A DNA stretch of 64,000 nucleotides from Pseudoramibacter alactolyticus ATCC 23263 (GTDB lineage: Bacteria > Bacillota > Clostridia > Eubacteriales > Eubacteriaceae). The notes beneath the pieces are model-generated. The model saw only the letters and a program-made list of their open reading frames with translations, ran no database searches and was not told where the DNA came from. The stretch lies in the NCBI RefSeq assembly GCF_000185505.1, contig NZ_GL622359.1, positions 647,308-711,307 on the forward strand. Direction: 5' to 3'. This document shows, piece after piece, positions 31,513 through 41,695 of this stretch (the first letter of the stretch is position 1; each line of letters opens with the position of its first letter). A program made the position numbers and the translations under genes.

Positions 31513-32451
31513 TTACCTATTCAAATAAACCGATATCAAATCTCGGATATAGGATCGAAATCCGAAATAATATTTTTGATAACTCATCAGCTTCAAATAA
31601 ATTATTGGATTCCTTCCTTGGGCAAATTGCAGCCTCAATTGCCATGTCTTCATCATTTTATTCAGATTGAGAAGTTTATTTTGGTTATTTTCTGCTTCTA
31701 ACATATTTTTCGTAAAAGCAATAAGCCGTTCTGTCAAACGAATATAATATTCCATTTGATCTATTAACCAACTTCTATCCCTTCTCCTCATGGACAGAAC
31801 GCTATCGGCATGACGACGATATTTAATTGTCTTTCGTTCGAAATGGTATAGGCCATCCATAATACACGCAACGCGCCAAAAAAAGGCATCATGTGCATCT
31901 TCGTTTTTATCCCAATAATCCACAATATATTTTTTCATACCCTTGCGGATGCAATAAGTACAACCTGGGCGTTTTACATAGATAAAGGAAGCATTCATTG
32001 GAATCAATGTTACTGCATTGCTGTCGTTCATCGCATTCCTTAAACTTCTATGATCTCGCCCCGATCGATCATCCATATAAAAAATATCATAATCGGAAAC
32101 AAGACATTGAATTCTCTCATTTTCCTCCATTACGTGCGTCATTGAAGCAATTTTATCCGGATACCAAATATCATCCTGATCGCAAGGAAAAATAAAATCG
32201 GCATCTGTGCTTTGAATCAATGACATAAAATTTTGTCTCCATCCACGGTTTGTTTCATTTATTTTAATAGACCAATTTAATAAATGATGCTCTTGGATAT
32301 ATTGTTCAATAATCGAAACTGTGTCATCATCTGAGCCATCATCGGAAATCAGAACTTCATCAGGTGACATTGTCTGGTCTTTCAATGAATCTAATAGTGG
32401 CAGAATGTATTTTTCTCCATTGTACGTTGACAGGACAATTGCCGTTTTCAT
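31513..32451 (-). CDS. GT2 family glycosyltransferase
   Basis: 312-residue cytoplasmic GT-A glycosyltransferase. KTAIVLSTYNGEKYILPLLD and EVLISDDGSDDDTVSI at the N-terminus, then PCDQDDIWYPDKI, a QDDxW-type motif seen in rhamnosyltransferase-like enzymes. MKKYIVDYWDKNEDAHDAFFW may be the acceptor region. Start at 32451 with GGAG upstream. It closely resembles the gene at 51138-52058 in layout. First gene after the Thoeris cassette. Confidence 0.83.
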   Translation of the reverse strand: MKTAIVLSTYNGEKYILPLLDSLKDQTMSPDEVLISDDGSDDDTVSIIEQYIQEHHLLNWSIKINETNRGWRQNFMSLIQSTDADFIFPCDQDDIWYPDKIASMTHVMEENERIQCLVSDYDIFYMDDRSGRDHRSLRNAMNDSNAVTLIPMNASFIYVKRPGCTYCIRKGMKKYIVDYWDKNEDAHDAFFWRVACIMDGLYHFERKTIKYRRHADSVLSMRRRDRSWLIDQMEYYIRLTERLIAFTKNMLEAENNQNKLLNLNKMMKTWQLRLQFAQGRNPIIYLKLMSYQKYYFGFRSYIRDLISVYLNR

Positions 32452-32731
32452 TTTCAAAACTCCTTGCATACTTCTCCACATCAGCTTTCAGATTATTTGA
32501 TGACGCAAATGAATTCCAAAAGGCAAGACAAGACAAATTTGACGATTATTCCAGCTTGACAAATACTAATCAATCTTGTTTAGTGATTATTTTCTGTCGT
32601 GTTCGTAATTCTTTTGATTATTTGATGTATCCATACCATCTTGCATATATAAATTAATGCTATCATTTTGTTATCGAAGTTGATAACACTCACTCCGTAA
32701 CTATGGATAATAGCTACACTATGTAATTATA
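32452..32731. other. AT-rich intergenic stretch between GT2 and thsA
   Basis: 280 bases without a gene I can support. It contains a perfect palindrome GTTATC-GAAGTT-GATAAC at 32670-32687 just beyond the thsA stop, without a T-run. On the minus strand TTGATT, 17 bases, AATAAT may be a weak promoter for the GT2 gene. The composition matches the Thoeris cassette rather than the GT2 gene, so it may be part of the inserted segment. Confidence 0.4.
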
Positions 32732-33690
32732 TTAACTAACTGGACTGCCAGTAATCCTTGAGTTCTTAATTCGCTTTTCATTCTCTGTAAAAAACTGGCA
32801 TTGAAGTTCTAAATAGTTACATAACTTTTCCCAAGTAACATTAGCGTCAGAAAGCGCAGGTGGATACACACAAATTGTCATTTTTCTGGCTACAAATTCA
32901 TCTTGTGATTTTGTAGCAAAAGAGAAAATCGTTTCATGAACTACATCTTCAAATGTTCCATCACATAATCCTGCTCGTCCTGTTCCAATTACAGGTATTG
33001 TTATAGGTTCAGTATGTCCTTCCTTTGATAGATATTCCCATAACCCAACAAGTGCCTTCGCCATATTTTGCATAGTTACATTTTGCGGCTTTCCAGTTTT
33101 ACTAACATCTGCAACAGCGAGAAAATAGTAATGCTGCCTCTTATAAGTAATTTTAGCAACTGTCCCTATCTCATACCTATTCTTATTTGTTTTTCTTCTA
33201 TCTTCCAAAACTTTATAATTAGTGTAGTTTTCATCAAGCGAGTTTTTTATATCCTTATCTAATTCCGAAAAATCAACACCGTATATATTTTTTGAAACTG
33301 TCCTTGCAAACTTTGCTCGCTGATAAAGTCTCCGCTCATAGTTGTATCAAAAGTCGTATTTGTTGGAATCACGATTGCAGACTCTTTTATATTCAACAAA
33401 TTCGCCATCTTCAGAGATATAATAGTATCTTTTTCACCCAAATATGCTGTTTTTTCCGCCTTTTCTTTACGTAATAACAATACAAGCATTGCTAAAATTA
33501 CCAAAAATCCTAAAATGTGATTTCTAAATATACCAATTAGCATTTGAGTTTTGAATGCAGCTTGCTCTATTTCACAAAATGTAAAATAACCACCAACTAA
33601 GGCAAAGAAAGTCGAAATATATTCTAACGGCTTTTTGAAAAAAGGCAAAAGAAATTGGACATAAATTTTAGTACATGCCAAGTTTTTCAT
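32732..33690 (-). pseudogene. thsA: ThsA of type II Thoeris (2 TM + macro domain), frameshifted
   Basis: Effector of a type II Thoeris anti-phage system. In this family two N-terminal membrane helices carry a macro-like domain (DUF6430 type) that senses a TIR-made ADP-ribose derivative and then damages the membrane. The first frame (33690 to 33259) encodes two helices (about residues 22-40 and 58-73) and the start of the macro domain, KMANLLNIKESAIVIPTNTT. The second frame (ending 32732) encodes the rest, including IPVIGTGRAGLCDGTFEDVV, the ligand-loop type segment. They join at AAAAAA (33288-33293): one more A restores QFQKNIYGVDFSELDKDI and a single product of about 319 residues. It starts inside the 3' end of thsB with a 23-base overlap. 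Confidence 0.78.
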
Positions 33691-34171
33691 AAACATTTTC
33701 TTTATAGTAATATGCTCCTGTTTTTCCTTCTTTACGGCATTTTTCATCAAATTCTGGCCAATTTTCCAAAGCATACTGTAATATCTTAGCGTTAAAACTA
33801 ATATGTACAGCTAAATTATCTCTCATTAAAGCAGGGCAACGATTTTGATCTTCACTCCTCTTTCCATTTAAATTAACAACAATGCAAGGAATTTTTCTTT
33901 TGATTGCTTGTTCGATTTCCCACCTCACATATTTATACATATATTTTGTATGTTCTCCTACCAAAAGTACAAATACCTTTGTCTTCCTGAATCTCTCTTG
34001 AAGTCCTGCTTTTATAGATGCCTCACTCTTATCGTAAATATTATTTATGTCATGAGCATCATAAAAATTAAAGGATGTATAGTCGCTTTGTTTCCAAGCT
34101 TTCATTAAATAATAATACCTTAAATCATTATCCGCATCCATTGAAACGTATACTTTATTTTTATATGCCAT
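33668..34171 (-). CDS. thsB: ThsB, TIR-like sensor of Thoeris
   Basis: 167-residue cytoplasmic protein of the DUF1863/MTH538 TIR-like family. Landmarks: KVYVSMDADNDLRYYYLMKA, FYDAHDINNIYDKSEASI, KTKVFVLLVGEHTKYMYKYV and RWEIEQAI, with Trp84 and Glu85 at the position of the TIR catalytic Glu. ThsB proteins sense phage infection and make a signal from NAD; in type II systems this is reported to be histidine-ADP-ribose. Start at ATG 34171 with AAGGAG 11 bases upstream; a GTG three codons earlier is too close to that site. AT-rich, unlike the adjoining wzx. Confidence 0.82.
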   Translation of the reverse strand: MAYKNKVYVSMDADNDLRYYYLMKAWKQSDYTSFNFYDAHDINNIYDKSEASIKAGLQERFRKTKVFVLLVGEHTKYMYKYVRWEIEQAIKRKIPCIVVNLNGKRSEDQNRCPALMRDNLAVHISFNAKILQYALENWPEFDEKCRKEGKTGAYYYKENVYEKLGMY

Positions 34172-34337: not shown

Positions 34338-35801
34338 TCAATCAACTTTTTTATTTTTCCACACTTTTCCTATGATGACTTGCAGCATTTCCCTCGCCAG
34401 CGGCTCTTTCATAACAAACATCGCCGCCGCATACACCCCCATAAACAGTACAGCTGAAATAACCAATGTCACAAAATTACCGAATCCCAATCGCGACACC
34501 CATAAGCTGGCTGCCGAACCCAATGCCAAGGCGATCGCAATTTTATAATACTGGATCTGCTTAAACAGCGGTGCCACTTCTTTGCGCAGCGCCCAAAATT
34601 GCACGATCAGCACCATGAGCTCCGCCGCGACTGTTCCGATGGCCGCCCCGGATGATGCCATTTTCGGGATCAGCAGCCAGTTAACCACCAAGTCAACGAG
34701 TGCTCCCGCAATTTCCGAATAAAGCACCACTTTTTCTTTACCCAGGGGTACGAGCATCTGCAAACCCAAAATATTGGTCAGCCCGATAAACAGCAGCGTC
34801 GGCATAATCAATTGCATCGGTTCGATTGCGCCGCCATAGGCACTCCCGGAAAGCAAAAAAATCCCCTGCCGTGCGAAGAAGATAAAATACAGCATCAACG
34901 GTGTCGCAATAATAAACACAAAATTCAGCGCCTTCGCCGCGATGCGCTTGAATTCGGCCATTTCACCGTTCTTTACATAATAAGAGGCCCGGGGCAAAAG
35001 CACCGTGCCTAACGACGTCACGACGCTGACCAAAATCGTTTTAATTCTAACTGCCGCATTATAATAGCCCACATCGGTATCGGTCTTCATAAACTTTAGC
35101 ATGACCGTGTCCAAATTGGTATAGATCGTCGTAGCCACCGCCATCGCAAAGAAAACGAACACTGCTTTTAAATGTCTCTTAAGTCGATAGCTGCCCACCG
35201 GCCTAAAATAAATATACCGGCGCGCATTGATAAAATTGAGCAACTGCGAAGCCGATGCCGCAAAAATAGAGATGCCGCCGTAAATCACATAATCACTTTT
35301 GACATGAATAAAGGCAAACATCCCGATGAGCGCGATAAATTTAAAAATAATAGAACGCACAGTAATATAAGTGTACTGCTCCAGCCCTTTATACATCCAT
35401 TCGATGCCGATACACTGAAAAATAATATTAAGGGAGACAATCAGATAAAGGGTGCGGTCTCCCTGCAGACGCGGCACAACGGCAAGGGCGCCAAACAAAA
35501 TGCCGTAAGAAATAATACTCATCAACAAATTGATGAAGAAAAGCTCATGCACAACACGCGTCAACGCCATTTTGTCGTCGCGCACCTGCGCACATTTGCG
35601 GATCCCATAGGTCGGAATCCCGAGCTGGGCAAACATGGTGAAGTACATAATTAATGACGTGGCGAAAGCCACTTTTCCGGTTCCCGCCGGCAAAAGAATC
35701 CGCGAGACATAGGGAAAGGTAATCAGCGGAAAAATGAACTGCGACATCATCAAAATCGCATTCATCAGAAAATTCTTCTTGATTGATTTTTGTTTAGGCA
35801 T
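34338..35801 (-). CDS. wzx: Wzx-type polysaccharide flippase
   Basis: 487-residue MATE/MOP-superfamily transporter with about 12-14 helices: KKNFLMNAILMMSQFIFPLITFPYVSRIL at the N-terminus, PTYGIRKCAQVRDD, YNAAVRIKTILVSVVTSLGTVLLPRASYY. It would flip the undecaprenyl-linked repeat unit across the membrane. The ATG overlaps the stop of the frameshifted wzy gene by eight bases. The only flippase of this type in the window although three polymerase-like genes exist. Confidence 0.88.
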   Translation of the reverse strand: MPKQKSIKKNFLMNAILMMSQFIFPLITFPYVSRILLPAGTGKVAFATSLIMYFTMFAQLGIPTYGIRKCAQVRDDKMALTRVVHELFFINLLMSIISYGILFGALAVVPRLQGDRTLYLIVSLNIIFQCIGIEWMYKGLEQYTYITVRSIIFKFIALIGMFAFIHVKSDYVIYGGISIFAASASQLLNFINARRYIYFRPVGSYRLKRHLKAVFVFFAMAVATTIYTNLDTVMLKFMKTDTDVGYYNAAVRIKTILVSVVTSLGTVLLPRASYYVKNGEMAEFKRIAAKALNFVFIIATPLMLYFIFFARQGIFLLSGSAYGGAIEPMQLIMPTLLFIGLTNILGLQMLVPLGKEKVVLYSEIAGALVDLVVNWLLIPKMASSGAAIGTVAAELMVLIVQFWALRKEVAPLFKQIQYYKIAIALALGSAASLWVSRLGFGNFVTLVISAVLFMGVYAAAMFVMKEPLAREMLQVIIGKVWKNKKVD

Positions 35802-37015
35802 TCATTTCTCCATCTAACAACGGTTGATTACCCTGTTGTCCGCTTTCTTCTTGTCGAAAGTTCGGAACGCGTTTCCATTTTTTGATAGATTTTCCAGAAA
35901 AAATCATTAATGGGAAGGGATTGAAGGCAAAATTCATCAGTCTCGGTTCTGTCAACGCAAAAACCAAAACAAACAAATAAACAAAAACGAGATAATAATC
36001 TTGCTGGCGAATCGCCTTGTAAATACCATAAGTATACATTGCGACCACAACTGCAATCACTAACACCCCATAATTAAGCGCCAATTGCAGATATGAGGAG
36101 TCAACGTAGTTATATTGCGAATCTGCCAACATCGGATGCTTAATGCTATACCCCATCCATTTGATCGGTTGTCCAAAAAATGTAAAGCCATATGATTTGA
36201 TCGCCTGATGTCCCAGCATGAGTCGATTGGATAACAGTTTATTCACTGTGGCAAAGGTATGCTGATTCTGATTAAAATAAATGGCCGAAACAAACGCTAA
36301 AATACATAAAACCGTCGGTATCAATAGATAGATTCCCTTCAGCTTTGACAATTTTCTCCAGCGTCTGCGGTTGAGATTTTGAATGGAAAAAAAGATCAAA
36401 AAAAGCGTTGACAGCATAAATGCCATTCGCGTATCCGTCAGCTGATAAAATAAAATGTTGATGGCTTCAAGAAAAATTGCTTCGCCGACGCCGAATTTTT
36501 CTTTTCTGAGATAAATGTATCCCAACATAAAATAAAAATATAAAATGGGTCCTGTTGTTGTCCATGAAAAGCCCAAGCCATGGCGAATACGATCACTATT
36601 CCTGCCGAAAAGATGGTCTTCCATGATGCCGATTTGACTTAGAAGAACAACAATCGCTAAAAAAAATCCTTGTATGCGGATTGTTAAACGCATTATTTTA
36701 CGCTTGTCAATATTGATAGATGCAAATAATACCAATAAATATAATAATAACGTTTTGTTCGTAGATGAAATGCAACTGATTATAAAAATCAAAAAATAAA
36801 TATTAAAATAAAAGTCTTATTCTTTTTATCTTTGTTCTGCATATCTCCGCGCAACAAATTAAATAAGCAAGGTAGCGCAACCCTTTGGCAAGCACGACCA
36901 AATACTTTATTCCCTGCAATGTCGTCGCACCGATTAAAAGAGAAAGCAGAAACAGAATCCATGCCGAAAAAAATAAAATTTCTGATTTGTTAAATCGATA
37001 TGTCTTCTTTAGCAT
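35794..37015 (-). pseudogene. Wzy-like polymerase, frameshifted
   Basis: Two adjacent frames form one broken gene. The first (37015 to 36803) encodes KKTYRFNKSEILFFSAWILF and KGLRYLAYLICCAEIC and stops after KIKRIRLLF. The second encodes the remainder, from LLLYLLVLFASINIDKRKIM through NRLMLGHQAIKSYGFTFFG and QYNYVDSSYLQLALNYGVL, to 35794. A one-base shift within the T/A-rich tract around 36790-36818 would join them into a product of about 405 residues, the size of the paralogue at 45841-47067. The second frame alone has only a TTG candidate start and lacks the first helices. It might be inactive, phase-variable or a sequencing artefact. Confidence 0.68.
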
Positions 37016-38074
37016 CTAAATCTCTTTTAAAAACTTTTCATTATCTGTTTGCATACTCTTAATTAGCCTGTCGAAAGCATCCTTTAAATCAATTTGAGGT
37101 CTCCAACCCAAATTTTCTAATTTTTCCGTTGATAAATTCATATGCAATGTTGGTGCATATCCGAAATTTGAAATTTTTTCTTCCTTAATTTTTACTTTAA
37201 TACAATTTTTTGAATTGTTCTTGGCAACTAATTTTGCCATTTCAAAGATAGAACAATATGTATTCGCATTCGCAGCGTTATACGCTTCGCCTGTTTTTCC
37301 AAAGAAAAGAACCATAAAAATAGCGGTCACCGCATCTGCTATATAAAGATAGGATCTTTTTGTCTCTCCTTTTGTGTGAAGCACAATATCTTTTCCTTCA
37401 ATAGCGCATCTGGCAAATTCAGCAAAAACACGACCATCACAATAATTTCCCCCTGGACCAAATGTCTGTGTTAACCTAACAACTTTAATTGGTATCCCAA
37501 ATTCTTGTGAATAAGCAACGCACAAATTTTCGCACATTCTTTTACTTTCGGGATAACAAGAGCGAATAGCCATTGTATTAATATCAGTCGGATGATCTTC
37601 TCTTACTAACTCATCTGTCTGTGGTGTCCCATAAACCTCCATACTTGATAAATAGACGAAACTCTGAACCGGATTGGCTTTCGCAAATTTTAAAACGTTT
37701 TGTGTTCCTTTTAAAGCCGTTTCTATTGTTTTTATTGGTTGATCAATAAAATTTTTGCTCGCCGTCTGGCTCGCTGCATGAATCACAAAATTAACATTTA
37801 TGTTCTTCGGTCTTAAATCTCGTATATCTGAAACATAAAATTTAAGAGTGTCGTCTTCCTCTCCAAAAATGTGATGTGCTTTATTTAAATCTCTAACTAT
37901 TGCAACAATGTTTATTTTCTGATCAGAATATTGATTAAAAAAAAGAAGACTTTTTACTAAGGACTGTCCTATAAGCCCCGTTGCACCGGTTATCGCAATC
38001 GTTTTGCCGGCTAAAATTGAAAAATCTATTTTATTATTAATGTAATTTAAATCTTCCATCAAAACTTTTTCCAT
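37016..38074 (-). CDS. NAD-dependent sugar epimerase/dehydratase (extended SDR)
   Basis: 352-residue extended SDR enzyme acting on a sugar nucleotide. AITGATGLIGQSLVKSLL is the NAD-binding GxxGxxG, VIHAASQTASKNFIDQP follows, and LSSMEVYG and SCYPESKRMCE supply the catalytic Ser and YxxxK. It sits in the same operon as a TarI/IspD-type cytidylyltransferase and LicD, a combination known from streptococcal and clostridial capsule loci. The activity could be epimerase, dehydratase or decarboxylase. Start placed at 38074 (MEKVLMEDLNY); the frame is open 11 codons further, which would overlap the preceding gene. Confidence 0.8.
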   Translation of the reverse strand: MEKVLMEDLNYINNKIDFSILAGKTIAITGATGLIGQSLVKSLLFFNQYSDQKINIVAIVRDLNKAHHIFGEEDDTLKFYVSDIRDLRPKNINVNFVIHAASQTASKNFIDQPIKTIETALKGTQNVLKFAKANPVQSFVYLSSMEVYGTPQTDELVREDHPTDINTMAIRSCYPESKRMCENLCVAYSQEFGIPIKVVRLTQTFGPGGNYCDGRVFAEFARCAIEGKDIVLHTKGETKRSYLYIADAVTAIFMVLFFGKTGEAYNAANANTYCSIFEMAKLVAKNNSKNCIKVKIKEEKISNFGYAPTLHMNLSTEKLENLGWRPQIDLKDAFDRLIKSMQTDNEKFLKEI

Positions 38075-39755: not shown

Positions 39756-40583
39756 TTATATCTCCTCACCATCTTCAAACCAAACTTCCATATTGTGTGT
39801 TGTCCTTTTTTCTTTCGGAGGCAGTTTCATGTAATCGCCGTACAATCCGGTTAAATAAGTTTCCCAGCAGGACATCGTCTGAAATGAATAACCTTCAAAA
39901 TTAACATTGTACGGTATTTCATATTCACTTTTATTAACACACTCTCCGAGGCCGTATAATCCCCATGTCACAGCACCGACTTTTTCGGTTTCTTCATAGG
40001 GATAGCGTTGAGCCATCTCGACAATCTTTTCTCCAGATTTTTGAGCGGGATATATTTTTTTAATCAATGCTATGTATGCCGGCTTGAGGATACGTTTAAC
40101 AAAATTCTTCCCTTCAGAGGGAACCGCCATATTTAACATAAGATATTTTCGATATCTGCCAATTGTTTTATATATCTTTTTTACTTCATTATTATCTTCA
40201 GGCAATCCATCATAAGGAAAAATATCAATCCATATTCCTGTATCATCACGATGCTTAAAATACTGTGTTTGATAATGGGTTCGCTTGTCAAAAATCTTCA
40301 TATAAGGTAACGTAAAATTCCCATCTTCAAAACAAATCATTTGGAGATGCCTCGGCAATTTATCTTTTTGATGCAAGACGAAAATCAATCTATTATAATC
40401 AGGTCTTGGCATACAAACATCGATATCATCATCCCATGGAATAAATCCCTGATGCCGAATCGCTCCTAATAAAGTTCCTCCACTTAAATAAAGTTTGATA
40501 TTTTCTTCATCGCAAATTTTTTTTAAAATTAATAATATGTCTAGTCCTATCTTCTGAATCTCTTGTAAATTAAGTTCTTTCAT
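39756..40583 (-). CDS. LicD family phosphotransferase
   Basis: 275-residue member of the LicD/fukutin nucleotidyltransferase-fold family, which transfers phosphocholine, phosphoribitol or another phospho-group from a CDP donor to a glycan. The signature YLSGGTLLGAIRHQGFIPWD with DDDIDV is intact, followed by MPRPDYNRL and DTGIWIDIFPYDGLP. Overlaps the GT4 gene by four bases (ATGA) and is followed immediately by the cytidylyltransferase, which could supply its donor. Confidence 0.88.
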   Translation of the reverse strand: MKELNLQEIQKIGLDILLILKKICDEENIKLYLSGGTLLGAIRHQGFIPWDDDIDVCMPRPDYNRLIFVLHQKDKLPRHLQMICFEDGNFTLPYMKIFDKRTHYQTQYFKHRDDTGIWIDIFPYDGLPEDNNEVKKIYKTIGRYRKYLMLNMAVPSEGKNFVKRILKPAYIALIKKIYPAQKSGEKIVEMAQRYPYEETEKVGAVTWGLYGLGECVNKSEYEIPYNVNFEGYSFQTMSCWETYLTGLYGDYMKLPPKEKRTTHNMEVWFEDGEEI

Positions 40584-41695
40584 ATTTTAATATATAAATT
40601 TAAAAACTGATGCACCGTATCTTCAATACTAAATTGTTTCTTTCTTATCTCATCACTCGTATCCTGCCGCTCTATCCGGACAAATTTTTTTACATTATTT
40701 ACCCATAATCCAAGTGATTCGTTATTTATCGGCAAAAACGATACATTTTCTGTCAGCTTAGCTTCCCGTGTTACCTGATCCGAAAAAATCACCGGCAATC
40801 CAGACGCTTGCGCCTCAACACCAACAATCGGCAAACCTTCAAAATGAGATGGTAAAAGAAAAATATCCATTGCTTGAAAAAGTTGATTCACACGTTGACT
40901 CGAACCATAAAAAATAACATCTTTTTTTAAATTCTTTTGAGCCACCAGCGTTTCAATTTCACTCTTTGAATCACCTTCCCCAATTAACAATAGCTTCGCA
41001 TTGGGAATATGTTTCTTCACTCGTTCAAAAATCTCAATAAGATAAGGATGATTTTTTTGAAAGGCAAAACGGCCGACATGTCCAATCACGCATGCGTTTT
41101 GAAGTCCCATTTCTTTTCTAATTGCCAATCTAACAACTTCGTCGTATTTAAATTTTCCTAAATCCACTCCGTTATTAATGAGTAAAACACGACCTGGATA
41201 AATATTGGGAAACATCCATTGTCTAGCCAGCCCTGAACAAGCAACAAATTTAGTTCCGATATTCTTTAACTTTTTCCTAAAAAATTTATGAATACACTCT
41301 TTGAATTGTCTATGAGAACCGTCAACACCGGCAGCATGCGAATGCAAAACAATATTTTTAATACCCGCTGCCTTTGCAGCTTTTCCTGCAACCCATAACT
41401 TATTGGACACATCTGAATGAATATGCACAAAATCATATTTTTGGTTTTGCATTAAATTCTTTAAATTTTTATAAATATGATATTGTTTTACAATTTTATT
41501 TCCCGCATGGCCTACATAGTGAACCGTTGTTCCCCACTTTTTTAAATAATCAAGATTCTCTTGCTTTTCAAAAGGTTCCTGACACGCAATATCAATCTGA
41601 AGTGATTTTGGCTTATTTTCAATAACATTTTTAACTAAAGAATAAACGCCGCCATTTCCGATATCATCAACATTTATTTCGAGTACTTTTGTCAT
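40580..41695 (-). CDS. GT4 family glycosyltransferase
   Basis: 371-residue GT-B fold enzyme. Acceptor half with EINVDDIGNGGVYSLVKNVI, HIHSDVSNKLW and VLHSHAAGVDGSHRQ; donor half with NNGVDLGKF, IGHVGRFAFQKNHPYLIEIF, LLLIGEGDSKSEIE and LPSHFEGLPIVGVEAQASGL, the E-x7-E type GT4 motif. Similar in layout to EpsF-like enzymes. Overlaps both neighbours by four bases. Confidence 0.87.
   Translation of the reverse strand: MTKVLEINVDDIGNGGVYSLVKNVIENKPKSLQIDIACQEPFEKQENLDYLKKWGTTVHYVGHAGNKIVKQYHIYKNLKNLMQNQKYDFVHIHSDVSNKLWVAGKAAKAAGIKNIVLHSHAAGVDGSHRQFKECIHKFFRKKLKNIGTKFVACSGLARQWMFPNIYPGRVLLINNGVDLGKFKYDEVVRLAIRKEMGLQNACVIGHVGRFAFQKNHPYLIEIFERVKKHIPNAKLLLIGEGDSKSEIETLVAQKNLKKDVIFYGSSQRVNQLFQAMDIFLLPSHFEGLPIVGVEAQASGLPVIFSDQVTREAKLTENVSFLPINNESLGLWVNNVKKFVRIERQDTSDEIRKKQFSIEDTVHQFLNLYIKI

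Follow-up and report, generated by a model that had tools for sequence, protein, structure and literature searches.

How does an anti-phage gene pair come to lie inside a surface-glycan locus, and could it still work there? The pair was found in Pseudoramibacter alactolyticus ATCC 23263, in a stretch of 64,000 nucleotides (contig NZ_GL622359.1, positions 647,308 to 711,307) that we refer to as the window. A sequence-only reading had taken it for a probable type II Thoeris system and had placed it between a wzx gene and a glycosyltransferase gene, an address that the profile matches of both flanking genes confirm (Table 1). In our view, the cassette is quite probably the terminal cargo of an integrative mobilizable element that targets guaA, now stranded between these two genes. 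The new part is this origin; the Thoeris type and the kind of element are both known already.

Table 1. Features of the cassette and its flanks, in window coordinates.
Feature	Position	Strand	Evidence
wzx-type flippase gene, upstream flank	34338..35801	-	PF01943, 3.8e-30; 70-71% to congeneric genomes
Remnant of a reading frame upstream of thsB, common to L019	34206..34296	-	Amino acid and nucleotide comparison
thsB, TIR-like sensor and signal-making enzyme (predicted)	33668..34171	-	Intact, 167 aa; PF08937, PADLOC ThsB, 8v6t
thsA frame 1: two hydrophobic stretches and macro positions 1-44, then out-of-frame tail and stop	33259..33690	-	PF20016, hydropathy
Six-A run (T6 on the plus strand), site of the thsA frame change	33288..33293	-	Frame translation; one-frame reading in L019, L021, L023, L026
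thsA frame 2: macro-profile positions from about 43-49 to 183	32732..33289	-	PF20016, PADLOC ThsA
Integrase-distal end (attR side) of a guaA-targeting mobilizable element, core-like AAGCTGGAATAA at outer edge	32546..32725	-	78% to G003, G002
Glycosyltransferase family 2 gene, downstream flank	31513..32481	-	PF00535, 9.8e-25

That the pair belongs to type II Thoeris by family is well supported by sequence. The TIR-like reading frame with its RWEIEQAI motif is present as described, and its product matches PF08937 (E=1e-16 in a profile search, chance excluded) and the full length of the PADLOC ThsB model (9e-72), in agreement with the ThsB assignment that had been proposed for it. Its nearest solved structure by sequence is 8v6t (EcThsB2; 4.5e-27), which also ranks first against an AlphaFold2 model (TM-score by query 0.83; the model was built from 38 sequences, with a mean pLDDT of 86). 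Y8, E85, Y156 and Y161 align with Y8, E89, Y159 and Y164 of EcThsB2. Across 38 aligned proteins, E85 and Y161 are found in all 38 and Y156 in 37, while Y8 is found in 33, the other five having F. The Tyr8/Glu85 pair and the tyrosine-bearing tail would thus put this ThsB, with good support from the alignment, in the class tied to membrane-macro ThsA.

The second gene is less straightforward. Its frame begins at 33690 and overlaps thsB by 23 bases (33668-33690), as had been noted. However, the second protein is not the product of a single reading frame: in the assembly its macro domain is divided between two, so that the effector (32732-33690, minus strand) ends after 44 of the 183 macro positions. 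PF20016 matches both pieces (4.6e-10 in frame 1 and 9.7e-31 in frame 2, chance excluded), as does PADLOC ThsA (2e-25 for frame 2), and the proposed macro-like domain is borne out for the joined ThsA, albeit across two frames. Two N-terminal membrane helices had also been proposed; two hydrophobic stretches are indeed seen in frame 1, but by the Kyte-Doolittle scale only the second is strong (2.2 over 19 residues), the first being weak (1.1). The helices and the ThsA-type macro domain are therefore present as sequence content, not in one frame. Frame 2 alone finds no match among PDB sequences; an intact ThsA relative and the profile do match ThsA structures. The profile matches and the ThsB class support the type II family and layout well, whereas the claim of a working system is not supported, since thsA is frame-broken in the assembly.

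Why is thsA broken? The base count at the homopolymer may simply be wrong in the assembly, in which case the cell has a working Thoeris system, a reading that we hold to be just short of an even call. Among 119 loci scanned for ThsA (L003-L121, the nine loci L003-L011 having entered via the ThsA search), 113 have a ThsA-like match, which covers at least 85% of the profile in one frame in 104 of them and is partial, again in a single frame, in nine (including L054, which runs into a contig end); the six loci without a match must include L020, in which thsA stops early near a contig end. These 113 pairings count in favour of the Thoeris reading. A split across two frames occurs in none of the 113, as expected if the window copy is an assembly error. 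Another apparent split is seen two genes upstream of thsB, where T-rich runs seem to divide a wzy-like polymerase gene into two pieces (36803-37015 and 35794-36792); the N-terminal piece matches relatives weakly (best E 0.14), and the Wzy_C match is under the cut-off. On the other hand, 18 conserved window genes (21,015 bases with 44 homopolymers of at least six) have no frame change and no internal stop when compared with congeneric proteins, but with 93 runs of six or more in 25796-45892 and two suspected breaks, this difference is too small to decide on an assembly error.

A real break is given a little under an even chance. The effector would then have decayed, leaving a relic cassette without its mobile element in which thsB is still open. 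The loss of one gene in a stranded cassette would be unsurprising: the surrounding element is gone (there is no close integrase or relaxase), and the frame remnant upstream of thsB also contains a stop. However, the intact thsB shares 87% identity with its nearest relative, and frame 2 of thsA, in which no further stop occurs, shares 73% with the macro part of L019 and of L021. Since frame 2 is otherwise so well kept, any decay of thsA would be recent. The position of the break at a homopolymer also brings to mind a deliberate change of frame, in which ribosomal frameshifting at the A6 run, or phase variation there, would keep the effector off until needed. This we consider very improbable, given that the four closest intact relatives (L019, L021, L023 and L026) read through the site in one frame, that only L019 among them has a six-A run in the thsA frame at this point, and that split copies are missing from all 113 loci. 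A run of six As is also short for slippage.

If the system were intact, how would it act? In the passages of PMC11204291 and PMC12948488 that set out the published model, ThsB makes an ADPR-type signal (His-ADPR for BaThs), which the macro domain of ThsA binds, and signal-bound ThsA clusters and disrupts the membrane. From these published relatives we infer that the ThsB of the window would sense infection and transfer the ADP-ribose moiety of NAD+ to an imidazole-type base, perhaps histidine (His-ADPR has been reported for one ThsB of the class). ThsA would bind the signal by its macro domain and cluster, and its membrane helices would breach the membrane, so that the infected cell would die ahead of phage release. 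In the assembly as written, there would be a signal without a complete receptor, thsA being broken inside the macro domain. The cleft also differs. Aligned with EcThsA (residues numbered by an offset derived from the construct ends in the EcThsB2 structure paper), the window ThsA keeps N96, D100, L113 and G218 and carries D83N, N114Q, S175A, S217T, T220A, H259Y and K262A. Not one of the four residues whose mutation abolishes ADPR binding in EcThsA (D83, S217, T220 and K262) is unchanged, and the ligand of the window ThsA is therefore not assured. Several cleft positions are variable across the 113 relatives (at N114, Q is found in 67 and N in 30).

What, then, brought the pair to this address? 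The 180 bp after thsA are 78% identical, over 171-180 bp, to the ends of elements in two congeneric genomes, G003 and G002, where the block lies on other contigs than wzx and forms one end of an inserted element. The element in G003 has a tyrosine integrase (PF00589), a NikA-type gene, an AAA_25 ATPase, a Mob_Pre relaxase and TnpV; that in G002 has the same set, but its integrase is reduced to a 45-residue piece. Beside the block, G003 carries an ABC protein and a nucleotidyltransferase-type resistance gene (PF10706), and G002 carries a MarR regulator and a MATE transporter. Genome G001, a third congeneric genome, presents the empty site: guaA continues straight into the flank, and a similar form of its last bases there (GAGTTAGAATAA) is repeated at the far end of the G003 and G002 elements. 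(The block edge in the window, AAGCTGGAATAA, is not the same as the guaA core.) A Subdoligranulum record has the block after tet(W), with GAGTGGGAATAA as the block's last bases; the integrase in this record shares 84% identity with the one in G003. Elements of this kind are already known: PMC5704250 lists ATE-1, which carries tet(W) and a tyrosine integrase, at the 3' end of guaA. With the att-side terminus of such a guaA-targeting element at its end, the cassette is most likely mobile cargo. The end block has no match in phage records and is found in one plasmid record.

Two arrangements of these elements deserve mention in their own right. In L165 (OY725880.1, 51578-69658), the end with tet(W) has one such integrase on each side (84% and 70%), an arrangement suggestive of elements in tandem. 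The G003 element (L158/L153, G003:C34) recurs in L184 (G323:C62), from a genome of another family, with integrase, AAA_25, Mob_Pre and TnpV proteins that are 100% identical, and must thus have moved between families recently.

The nearest relative, L019, resembles the window beyond the two genes themselves. Just upstream of its thsB is a counterpart of the frame remnant (58% amino acid identity over 33 residues, E=1e-7; 70% nucleotide identity over 100 columns). After its thsA, there is a possible end-block copy, weak on its own, that scores 36 against a shuffle maximum of 32 (none of 200 shuffles as high; blastn E 0.077), and a GAGTGGGAATGA core; among the 18 close relatives tested in this way, the 17 others gave no sign of the block. 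These common features make the DNA from about 34296 to 32546 look like one imported piece, comprising the cargo and an element end. Upstream, L019 has a C5 methylase and an NgoBV-type restriction enzyme as neighbours.

A search of the host genome with the G003 integrase gives a top hit of 28% identity (7.4e-10), which is not close, and the G003 relaxase has no match, although a negative for the relaxase says little by itself; a donor element in the same genome was rejected on these grounds. The cassette itself contains neither a tyrosine integrase nor a Mob_Pre relaxase. With no close integrase or relaxase, a single copy of the end block in the genome, and the host's own guaA about 0.6 Mb away (contig position 67034-68623), the cassette is probably not mobile by itself. 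Repeats sought as an insertion signature, direct or inverted, were short imperfect pairs, none of them flanking the cassette. The DNA after the host's guaA (L163, G000:C1:66000-84999) is occupied by another island, partly masked, with an AraC-type regulator, an ABC exporter and other genes; no far end of this island was detected.

Might the cassette instead be kept in the glycan locus on account of its neighbours? The earlier suggestion was that defence and glycan variation had been gained together, and the position between wzx and the glycosyltransferase gene is real enough. That defence and receptor variation are selected together is nevertheless very unlikely: the reading frames of three congeneric glycan loci have no match to the cassette, ThsA_Macro is missing from 40 relatives, and a mobile-element end is sufficient cause, so joint gain is not needed. 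The cassette is AT-rich, as had been remarked (32-34% GC), but not distinctively so, since 36500-37499 and 40500-41499 are equally low (33%); AT-richness was accordingly rejected as a sign of foreign origin. Arrival as cargo, rather than a part in the glycan pathway, most likely explains the place of the cassette in this locus, and a mobile-element origin accounts for its address in part.

Beyond the close relatives, a sample of 391 genomes from the class has ThsA_Macro in 10, the host's own among them. The cassette DNA has no match in complete E. coli genomes, and ThsB has one partial match (27%) in phage records. A scan of viral contigs gave 23 loci with the ThsB alignment and no confirmed relative with thsA frame 2 alone. 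Rfam returned a single match, far below the gathering score. An unannotated thsB relative with a stop codon is found at 4001-4474 of L013, amid type I restriction genes on a Lactococcus plasmid, and tblastn found no ThsA near it. Among L019-L036 and L099, the ThsA macro domains diverge far more than the partner ThsB proteins; between L019 and L022, for example, ThsB is 85% identical and the ThsA macro parts 37%. Effector swapping was considered and rejected, since a ThsB tree grouped by ThsA clade is not rejected by the AU test (p 0.29 and 0.21), and ThsA may simply evolve faster than ThsB.

What else travels beside this element end? The end block is present in 16 of the 391 class genomes (own included), in 18 places, with G002 and G003 additional. 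Sixteen stretches were taken, covering the 17 places outside the host's own genome, and in eight of them a GAGTGGGA core lies near the block. PADLOC was applied to 30 chosen proteins from 12 of the 16 (L191, L195, L198 and L184, which carries the G003 element, being left out), and seven of the 12 have recognizable defence genes by our own reading of the matches, with no preset threshold. The cargo comprises SIR2-HerA with a methylase in L185, type II restriction-modification in L186, L190 and L188 (the last also with TIR proteins), a DRT class 2 reverse transcriptase in L187, AbiEi in L189, and in L197 (genome G143) a second Thoeris pair, whose ThsB is 29% identical to that of the window. (In L190, the genes nearest the block are without a match, the restriction genes ending 1.8 kb off.) The other five stretches gave no, generic or partial matches. 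On the opposite side of the block, three of 10 proteins from eight stretches matched, all generically or partially (a methyltransferase, an ABC ATPase and an ArsR-like regulator, again by our own reading). L188 also carries a grouping (G259:C77, 902-4139, minus strand) in which Eco47II-type restriction-modification genes, an 8xMP membrane protein and two TIR-type proteins are found at the element end; the membrane-TIR trio may be a defence unit.

These counts come from a small sample and are a lead rather than a survey. Tentatively, and with more doubt than confidence, we propose that the integrase-distal end of guaA elements is a general cargo slot in Clostridia for anti-phage and drug-resistance genes, and that it can be stranded with its att end away from guaA, here in a glycan locus. 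If so, the slot gathers Thoeris (at least twice), restriction-modification, SIR2-HerA, DRT reverse transcriptase and AbiE, and a once mobile defence pair has become fixed beside genes that may build phage receptors. A literature search, which covered titles and opening abstract text, found no description of Thoeris on guaA elements; in excerpts of an S. suis paper (PMC12479173), Thoeris and guaA-integrated mobilizable elements are mentioned separately. It is the shared element end that gives the cassette its moderate interest. Some 180 bp suggest how a defence system came to such an unusual position, as cargo of one mobilizable-element family, and the same sequence could serve as a probe for defence cargo. 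The locus also illustrates that Thoeris profile matches do not equal a working system, since a one-frame check fails here.

How does the window compare with known systems? Like EcThsA/EcThsB2 of E. coli CFT073 (8v6q, 8v6t) and BaThs of Bacillus amyloliquefaciens Y2, it has a ThsB with Tyr8, the catalytic Glu and tail tyrosines, and membrane helices that precede a ThsA-type macro domain, encoded by two adjacent genes. Unlike in these type II systems, its thsA is spread over two frames; the window has one ThsB protein where EcThs has two, and the ThsA cleft differs from that of EcThsA at D83, N114, S175, S217, T220, H259 and K262. With guaA elements of the ATE-1 type (ATE-1 itself being likened by description, not by sequence), the window shares an attR-side end, a core-like edge and accessory genes beside it. 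In contrast to them, it lacks integrase, relaxase and TnpV and does not lie at guaA; the window copy is a derived fragment of a guaA-targeting element, not an element.
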